NCBI GenBank assembly: GCA_035651995.1
Contig: DASRER010000004.1
Span: forward strand, 62,001 to 126,000
Direction of reading: 5' to 3'
DNA from: Terriglobales bacterium
GTDB taxonomy: Bacteria; Acidobacteriota; Terriglobia; Terriglobales; Acidobacteriaceae
Length of the DNA: 64,000 bases
The position numbers and the translations under genes were made by a program. Positions 15,109 to 50,794 of this stretch are shown piece by piece. The notes below the pieces were generated by a model, which was given only the letters and a program-made list of their open reading frames with translations, was not told where the DNA came from and made no database searches. The stretch's first letter is position 1. Every line of letters begins with the position of its first letter.

Positions 15109-16257
15109 ATGGCCTGTTTCTCCCGGATGATTTTCGGCGTTCTGCTGGCGCTTTTTGGCGCCGCGGCGACCCTTTCCGCGCAGAATCCCGCGCCAAACTC
15201 AGTGCAGCTGGTGGGACCGGAAGCGGCCCGGTCGAAGCCTAAGGGGAAGTCGTCGTCGCTGCTGCCGGTTGACTTCGCCGGCTGGCAGAAGTCCGCCGAC
15301 GCGCACGCCAGCAAAGATCCGCTCGAGGCCGACGCCGTGGATCCCGCCGCGCTGCGCGAGTACGGCTTCACCGATTTTGAGCGGGCCACCTACACCCGCG
15401 ATGGCAGCAAGATTGAAGTTCGCGCGGCGCGCTTTGCCGACGCCGGCGGCGCCTACGGCGCGTTCACGCTCTACAAGAGCCCGGAAATGGTGATCGAAAG
15501 GATCGGCGACCAGGGCGCGTCGGCCACGGACCGCGTGCTCTTCTACCGCGGCAACATCCTGGTGGACGCGCACCTGGAGCACGTCACCGCCATGTCGGCC
15601 GCCGACCTGCGCACGCTCGCCACCGAACTTCCCGAAGCCGTCGGTACTCAGCGTAATCTGCCTGCCCTGCCGACCTACTTGCCGCAGCAGGGCTATGTGA
15701 AAAACTCGGCCAAGTACGTGGTCGGGCCGGCGGCGCTCGCGCACGTCGAATCGCCGCTGCCGGCCAGTGCGGTGGATTTCGGACGCGGCGCGGAACTCAC
15801 GCTGGGCGAGTACACGACTTCGAGCGGCACGGCGGACCTGGTGCTCATCTCGTATCCCACACCGCAGATCGCCGGCGACCGCTTGCGCGCGCTCGAAGCC
15901 ATGATCGCCGAATCGCAGAAGTCGCCGGCCGCGCCGATGCAGGCGGTGCGCCGCTCCGGTCCGATCGTCGCTTACGTCAGCGGCGCTATCTCGGCGGCGG
16001 AGGCGAAGTCGCTGCTCGCGGCGGTGAACTACGACGCGAACGTCACCTGGAACGAGCCCACGTTTCTCAGCAAGCGCGACAACATCGGCAATCTCGTCGT
16101 CGCGGCGCTGGTGCTGTGCGGCATCATCATGCTGCTGGCGCTGGCGGCGGGCGTCGCCTTCGGCGGGCTGCGCATCCTGATGAAGCGCCTCTATCCAGAC
16201 CGCGTTTTTGACCGCTCGCGCGACGTGGAGATCATTCGATTGAAACTGGGCGAATGA
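15109..16257 (+). CDS. DUF6599-like exported protein with C-terminal membrane anchor
   Basis: This 382-residue protein has a signal peptide (MIFGVLLALFGAAATLSAQ). The periplasmic domain carries blocks such as YGFTDFERATYTRDG and GAYGAFTLYKSPEM. A single membrane helix near residues 325-350 (NLVVAALVLCGIIMLLALAA) is followed by a short basic cytoplasmic tail. It resembles the acidobacterial DUF6599 family, whose function is unknown. A -10-like TCTAAT (15092-15097) lies 11 bases upstream of the ATG, so the leader would be very short. Confidence 0.7.
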   Translation: MACFSRMIFGVLLALFGAAATLSAQNPAPNSVQLVGPEAARSKPKGKSSSLLPVDFAGWQKSADAHASKDPLEADAVDPAALREYGFTDFERATYTRDGSKIEVRAARFADAGGAYGAFTLYKSPEMVIERIGDQGASATDRVLFYRGNILVDAHLEHVTAMSAADLRTLATELPEAVGTQRNLPALPTYLPQQGYVKNSAKYVVGPAALAHVESPLPASAVDFGRGAELTLGEYTTSSGTADLVLISYPTPQIAGDRLRALEAMIAESQKSPAAPMQAVRRSGPIVAYVSGAISAAEAKSLLAAVNYDANVTWNEPTFLSKRDNIGNLVVAALVLCGIIMLLALAAGVAFGGLRILMKRLYPDRVFDRSRDVEIIRLKLGE

Positions 16258-16403
16258 GCCCGGAAACTTCACCTAAGATGCTGTCCAAGAGTGGGTTAGC
16301 AGCGCTCAAGGCCTAAACTGGCAGACTTTTCCAAGCCCTGTAAGGGAAAACGCGTACCAACGTAACATGTTGAAAACACATGGGTTTATCGCGGAAAAAT
16401 TTC

Positions 16404-16433
16404 TTGACACCCTATCTGCCGCGCTCATAAGAT
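16404..16433 (+). promoter_or_regulatory. Consensus-like sigma70 promoter of the small RNA
   Basis: TTGACA (16404-16409) is a perfect -35 box and TAAGAT (16428-16433) is a near-consensus -10, with an 18-bp spacer. It is the strongest -35/-10 pair noticed in the window. No start codon follows before a terminator at 16489-16523. Confidence 0.75.
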
Positions 16434-16439
16434 TCGGCC

Positions 16440-16523
16440 ATAGATTTTGACGGATTTACCTCCGTTAGAACTATTCTCCCAAAGGAAGCGGCCGCCTGAT
16501 TGCCGGGCGGCCGTTTCGTTTTT
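16440..16523 (+). ncRNA. Candidate free-standing small RNA (~84 nt)
   Basis: Transcription from the promoter at 16404-16433 should begin near 16440 and end at the intrinsic terminator whose U-run closes at 16523. The short transcript has a 5' hairpin ACGGA-tttacc-TCCGT (16450-16465), an unpaired middle (AGAACTATTCTCCCAAAGGA) and the terminator stem. There is no open reading frame and no plus-strand gene downstream (the next gene is convergent). This argues for a standalone sRNA over a leader. No Rfam family is recognised. Confidence 0.65.
16489..16523 (+). terminator. Intrinsic terminator of the small RNA
   Basis: Perfect 8-bp arms CGGCCGCC (16489-16496) and GGCGGCCG (16506-16513) are followed by TTTCGTTTTT. 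Confidence 0.85.
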
Positions 16524-16756: not shown

Positions 16757-17215
16757 CTATTTCCCGACAATCTGGCTCTTCAGCGGCGCGATGGCGTTGA
16801 TGACATCGGTCTGCTCCGCCGGCGGCACCTTGAACTTGTTCAGCGTGTCGGTGAGGTGCTTTACGCTGATGGTCCAGTCTTCCTCGGTGATGCCGAGGCC
16901 GGTGTGCGCCGTGGTCATGTCGCGTCCCGTGTAGATGCACGGGCCGCCAGTGGCCGAACACAGGAAATCGACGATGTGCTGGCGGGTGCGCTTTTTCGAG
17001 TCGGTGCTCAGTCCGACGAAGAACCGTCCCTCCTTCGGATCGGAAGCGAGCCGGCCGATGAAGTCGTCGGTCACGGCGGCGATAGCGTCGTAGCCGCCGA
17101 GCCGCTGATAAAGCGACTTCTTTGCCTTTTCGGCCTGCGGGACAGCAGCCGACGCGGGCAGCGAGACGAGCCCAGCCACCAGCGTCAGGCACAGCAATAG
17201 CGAAATCTTTCTCAT
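16757..17215 (-). CDS. Exported group 1 truncated haemoglobin
   Basis: This 152-residue protein begins at the ATG at 17215 with a clear signal peptide (MRKISLLLCLTLVAGLVSLP, ASA-A cleavage). The mature ~125 residues form a trHb1/GlbN fold: SLYQRLGGYDAIAAVTDDFI, the region FLCSATGGPCIYTGRDMTTA, then the proximal His in AHTGLGITEEDW. Truncated haemoglobins bind O2 or NO at haem and are normally cytosolic, so the export signal is notable. It is a single gene, convergent with the small RNA. Confidence 0.88.
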   Translation of the reverse strand: MRKISLLLCLTLVAGLVSLPASAAVPQAEKAKKSLYQRLGGYDAIAAVTDDFIGRLASDPKEGRFFVGLSTDSKKRTRQHIVDFLCSATGGPCIYTGRDMTTAHTGLGITEEDWTISVKHLTDTLNKFKVPPAEQTDVINAIAPLKSQIVGK

Positions 17216-50525: not shown

Positions 50526-50600
50526 GAGCAATCCTCCATGAAAGTACAAAAAGACTTGGAGCGCGCCGGCGGCCCGCGGCGCTCGATGGACGAAGTTAAA

Positions 50601-50794
50601 GCCGACCCGCGTGGCCGTGAGGTGGGCCGCTAATGAACCTTGTCGAAGACAAGGTGGGAACCCTCCGCAGCCCTTCAGGCATCTCCGCATGACGGAGCAT
50701 CGCACACCAGGCTGAATCGAGTCGGGCCCCCGCGTTATTTGAATGTTGGTTCAAATAACGGTGACCACCAGCACCAACCTTGCAGGCCGGCTTC
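50601..50794 (-). ncRNA. ssrS: 6S RNA
   Basis: The transcript of about 190 bases has closing-stem ends GCCGGCCTGC (50791-50782) and GCGGGTCGGC (50610-50601), which pair over 10 bp with G-U wobbles. Pairing continues inward for ~20 bp. Interior stem-loops include GTTATTTGAAccaacATTCAAATAAC and ACCTTGTCTTCGACAAGGT, and a large central region lies between. The length, long rod-like fold and position just downstream of zapA match 6S RNA, which sequesters the housekeeping RNA polymerase holoenzyme. A -10-like TAGCAT (50808-50803) sits at the right distance upstream. Confidence 0.82.

Follow-up and report, generated by a model that had tools for sequence, protein, structure and literature searches.

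The DNA analysed here, a window of 64,000 nucleotides from a Terriglobales bacterium, encodes a predicted small RNA (sRNA A) belonging to a previously undescribed family that is recognizable, from sequence comparison, in most families of its class. A probably acts in trans as an antisense sRNA that would block the translation of one dedicated partner, RNA B. A preliminary description of this stretch had proposed a compact unknown sRNA unit, and conservation across the class together with the lack of any Rfam match bears this proposal out. The features of the window that matter here are the following.

15109..16257, plus strand: DUF6599 gene (PF20244; Pfam E 8.9e-28), constant upstream neighbour of A on the same strand
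16404..16409, plus strand: -35 box TTGACA of A, also present in 120/121 homologous loci
16428..16433, plus strand: -10 box TAAGAT of A, embedded in the conserved CATAAGATT
16440..16523, plus strand: predicted sRNA A, about 84 nt from a putative start site; conserved family, covariance model R1
16440..16474, plus strand: 5' hairpin of A, with U/C wobble changes in its 5' arm
16464..16480, plus strand: pairing core of A, GUUAGAACUAUUCUCCC; its complement in RNA B covers the ribosome-binding site and start
16485..16523, plus strand: intrinsic terminator of A (14-bp stem, U tract), showing numerous compensatory changes
16757-17182, strand opposite to A: truncated-globin gene

The promoter first noticed upstream of A, TTGACA and TAAGAT separated by an 18-bp spacer, is recovered as the top promoter-like site within 5 kb (score 10/12). 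The terminator stands as well, as its 14 pairs at 16485-16517, 10 of which are GC, are followed by GTTTTT and make it the best of the region. Folding of the predicted 85-nt RNA gives -43.8 kcal/mol (z = -7.0), with equally stable shuffles in 0/200 cases, and the claimed 5' hairpin is found both in the predicted fold and in the conservation of base pairs across loci. The segment following it had been described as single-stranded, which holds for UCUCCCAAAGG, predicted to be exposed, but not for AGAACUA, which is paired as the 3' arm of this hairpin. Open reading frames (ORFs) had been reported absent from the unit; mechanical ones do overlap it, although none is supported as a gene. On the strand of A, where no downstream gene had been seen, the next downstream gene begins about 1.4 kb away.

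In many lineages, a conserved AT-rich stretch (TTGTAAGTTATTGAAAATAAAGATATTTATTTC-like, at about 16356-16402 here) lies 5' of the -35 box and is clearest in loci L004, L006, L010, L012, and L016; it is possibly an UP element or a regulator site. The window also carries a 6S RNA (RF00013, 76 bits) at 50600-50791 on the minus strand.

The family of A extends well beyond its first member. A BLASTN search with a 136-nt query finds it in 33/37 genomes of the same family and in 0/24 others, and the covariance model, built from 32 sequences and applied to a class-wide sample, in 71/74 same-family genomes. Among the matches listed for the 19-mer CCGTTRGAACTATTCTCCC in public genomes, all records are Acidobacteriota, including Edaphobacter lichenicola, Granulicella, and Acidicapsa. 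With the neighbouring DUF6599 gene used as an anchor, diverged copies are identified in families f2, f3, f5, f6, f8, f10, and f12, also in f7, whereas family f4 displays only a degenerate A-like unit. Across 91 non-identical sequences, standard pairs make up 99.4% of base-pair cells and double changes occur in 15/24 pairs, values reached by no shuffle. This covariation is mostly located in the terminator. The two arms of the 5' helix behave differently: wobble changes accumulate in the 5' arm, whereas the 3' arm, CCGUURGAAC, hardly varies, a pattern suggesting that this arm and CUAUUCUCCC next to it are constrained at the level of sequence. The retention of promoter, hairpin, core, and terminator across genera is far beyond chance. 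The preliminary description had suggested a search for conservation and covariation and had named confinement to one strain as the outcome that would speak against it; the search places A across the class.

Some units at the margin of the family deserve mention. In three f4 loci (L331, L332, and L342), a TTGACA-promoted unit follows DUF6599, with a hairpin and UCCUUUUUCUCUUU replacing the core, and is itself followed by a tRNA gene; it is a candidate for a diverged or reassigned A. Weak hits of the model elsewhere in the phylum scored 30-41 bits, and the two inspected, in G382 and G509, were rejected as they match chiefly via the terminator and lack the core.

The partner of A was searched for in 37 genomes as a complement of the core, AGGGAGAAT, followed by a start codon. 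One class of sites recurs, in which AGGGAGAATAG lies directly 5' of the start of a Lys/Ala-rich ORF of 12-32 codons. The core complement occurs at this one recurrent gene, about once per genome, and always at the ribosome-binding site of the mini-ORF. Within A, GAACUAUUCUCCC is perfectly complementary to GGGAGAAUAGUUC, a stretch of B that overlaps its ribosome-binding site. In the genome from which the window comes (G000), B lies outside the window and has the sequence AGGGAGAATAGTTCAATG and then MAKKAKKAKKKKH.

G000, contig C14:121335-121352, minus strand: pairing site of B, complement of the A core
G000, contig C14:121335-121436, minus strand: B gene, unannotated, with the 13-codon MAKKAKKAKKKKH and its own promoter and terminator (loci L174 and L206); homologues occur in most families of the class

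B units are composed of TTGACA..TATACATTC, a 5' stem, and GGGGACGC..GCGTCCCC with a T-run, and would constitute small monocistronic RNAs. A sequence-only model detects them in 50/54 genomes of the same family (f1), 5/5 of f2, and 6/6 of f8, and, at lower scores backed by the K-rich ORF, in f3, f5, f6, f10, and f12. The putative peptides, 12-32 residues long, are Lys/Ala-rich and include no hydrophobic stretch. The genes of A and B are unlinked, present in single copy, and vertically inherited. The 10-mer GGGAGAATAG has four copies in the window's own genome, of which only that of B is found at a start site, the others being one opposite A and two without a start codon. In family f7, which has A, two patterns and the model revealed no convincing B, a model hit in G148 being rejected because it encodes an unrelated protein; neither A nor B is seen in family f9. 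The pair is therefore not universal in the class. In genus g59, B is not detectable and A is degenerate or absent, a joint decay that speaks for the antisense reading.

The two RNAs change together in a way that preserves their predicted pairing. Cognate duplexes in 52 A-B pairs have a mean energy of -21.9 kcal/mol vs -18.8 kcal/mol for non-cognate ones (0/20,000 permutations). The difference is larger among 21 divergent representatives (-24.9 vs -16.0 kcal/mol, 0/100,000 permutations); when each of eight families is represented by one genome, no other of the 40,320 possible assignments scores as well as the true one, some A and B segments of distant families being chosen by eye in these two comparisons; and removal of the Shine-Dalgarno core (GGAG/CUCC) leaves -9.2 vs -3.8 in seven families (7/5,040), while masking it in 14 representatives gives 0/50,000, all these permutation p-values being approximate because family representatives share ancestry. 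Compensation recurs in separate families. Thus, A GAACGAUUCUCCCUU is matched by B AAGGGAGAACGUUC in G005, CUUUUCCCUUGAAG by UUUCAAGGGAGAAG in G013, CCAUUCUCUAUUUCGA by UCGAAAGGGAGAAUGG in f8, AUUCCCUCC by GGAGGGAAU in f10, and GAGCUACUCUCCC by GGGAGAGUAGCUC in f12. In genus g55, A CUGCCUCCCAU is matched by B AUGGGAG(C)GCAG, and in f5, 18/19 pairs form and run through the start codon. The CUCCC stretch had been expected to pair with Shine-Dalgarno sequences (GGGAG), and the comparison gives this expectation a specific, coevolving partner.

Features of a trans-acting antisense sRNA are found in A, namely its own promoter and terminator, a conserved structure, and a complementarity, conserved and coevolving, to the mRNA of an unlinked gene. 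Once A is transcribed from its putative promoter, its exposed C-rich segment and adjoining bases of the hairpin 3' arm would pair with B around the ribosome-binding site and start codon, B being a separate transcript that encodes the Lys/Ala-rich peptide in most lineages. The pairing site of B is partly structured in predicted folds, and co-folding of the two RNAs gains about 18.7 kcal/mol. Their association may block ribosome binding to B, so that regulation would be repressive and the peptide would be kept low until A falls or B rises. Hfq is a probable helper of the pairing; a canonical hfq gene is present, and Hfq is encoded in nearly all relatives.

In two genera, the ATG and the K-rich frame of B have disappeared, but its promoter, stem, pairing site, and terminator persist together with GGCAAAGC-like repeats. 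These are g31, with six genomes (L245, L249, L250, L244, L243, and L241), and g55, with four (L251, L253, L256, and L257). Pairing with A is retained and the site still covaries. A block of translation is consequently not the whole story there, and B, with a site that outlives its ORF, probably has an additional role at the RNA level, such as that of a sponge. Indeed, pairing would also sequester A, so B could act back on A, which would explain what both genera have preserved. In g55, the AGGCAAA of B could also pair with the A loop UUUGCCU.

It is conceivable, if doubtful, that B is mainly such a regulator (sponge or decoy) of A, that the important targets of A are other mRNAs reached via its generic anti-Shine-Dalgarno motif, and that the Lys-rich ORF is secondary. 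The ORF-less units argue for it, as does the conservation of the A core far beyond the apparent need for one target. However, although the ORF varies in length, most lineages and families conserve it together with its start and K/A-rich composition, and no second conserved ribosome-binding-site target recurred in a search with the exact 10-mer GGGAGAATAG in five genomes, weaker targets lying outside its scope. A tentative extension of the antisense reading would combine both roles. A and B would then be an ancient pair of RNAs acting on each other, B serving both as the micro-mRNA of a histone-tail-like peptide and as a sponge dedicated to A, the RNA-RNA role being older and more constrained, so that whole genera could drop the peptide and keep the pairing RNAs.

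It is rather unlikely that A and B represent a type I toxin-antitoxin-like pair, with a cationic peptide harmful when over-made and A as its RNA antitoxin. In such systems (tisB/IstR-1, shoB/OhsC, zorO/OrzO), an ORF shorter than 60 aa is controlled by an sRNA pairing with its mRNA (PMC11264685), and the A-B pair reproduces this layout, in that a tiny ORF of this size has a promoter of its own and an RNA complements its ribosome-binding site. The fate of genus g59, where A is degenerate or absent and B not detectable, would also fit. Nevertheless, small size and hydrophobicity typify the known type I toxins (PMC3919570), whereas the B peptide is cationic, and the lack of this hydrophobic feature is the reason why A-B is not assigned to type I. 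In addition, the two genes are unlinked single copies with vertical inheritance, and A persists in g31 and g55, where the two RNAs have survived the loss of the ORF. Reports of type I systems had come from only a few other phyla (PMC12390103).

The locus of A has a remarkably constant left border. DUF6599 stands immediately upstream on the same strand in 123/128 loci (species partly redundant), usually 75-300 nt away, the five loci without it being contigs cut just upstream. This synteny is also found in other families of the class, and DUF6599 itself occurs in 104/111 genomes of the class and 0/14 control genomes; a literature search found no paper on it. The nearly absolute synteny could suggest that A is a 3'-UTR-linked element serving the DUF6599 gene and not a trans regulator. 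This is very improbable because A retains its own near-consensus promoter in all but one of the 121 loci, which makes it an independent unit, and because its conserved core matches B. Least probable of all, a generic anti-Shine-Dalgarno motif merely meeting an ordinary strong ribosome-binding site would account for CUCCC facing GGGAG, AGGGAG sites being common at starts, but is rejected by the masked-core permutation test, as pairing reaches well past the Shine-Dalgarno sequence, involves a single gene in each genome, and still covaries once the core is masked.

Very little work exists on post-transcriptional regulation in Acidobacteriota, and a literature search found no acidobacterial sRNA study, a 2017 survey of 224 candidate RNAs falling outside its scope. 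The sRNA family described here is present in most families of its class, and the predicted pairing site of its partner has repeatedly covaried with it, so that the RNA-RNA interaction is directly testable. The analysis also brings to light an unannotated class-wide gene for a lysine-rich peptide of 12-32 residues, and the DUF6599 locus provides a marker for the position of A.

Among known RNAs, Acido-1 and Acido-Lenti-1 (RF01686, RF01687) are candidate noncoding RNAs from Acidobacteria (PMC2864571), and neither matched the window at Rfam thresholds. More generally, no Rfam 15 family reaches the gathering threshold over A or in any of the six scanned B loci. The best sub-threshold alignment, to suhB/MmgR (alpha-r14, RF00519), reaches 19.7 bits vs a gathering score of 41, and this identity was rejected. 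The suhB/MmgR family, described from alphaproteobacteria, nonetheless resembles A as a short RNA with a 5' hairpin, an exposed CUCCC, and a GC-rich terminator. On the peptide side, B recalls the histone H1-like HC2 family (PF07382) by its Lys/Ala-rich composition. Membership was rejected, as one of four peptides gave E = 0.0014 and 19.2 bits, below the 40-bit cut-off, and the likeness is of low complexity for peptides of such a length. The C-rich sRNAs of Firmicutes, RsaE/RoxS and FsrA, carry a C-rich anti-Shine-Dalgarno segment. RoxS has a sponge RNA (PMC8216469). A shares such a segment with these sRNAs, whereas it differs from them by its lack of an Rfam match and by its only recurrent partner found, one tiny transcript with which it is co-conserved.
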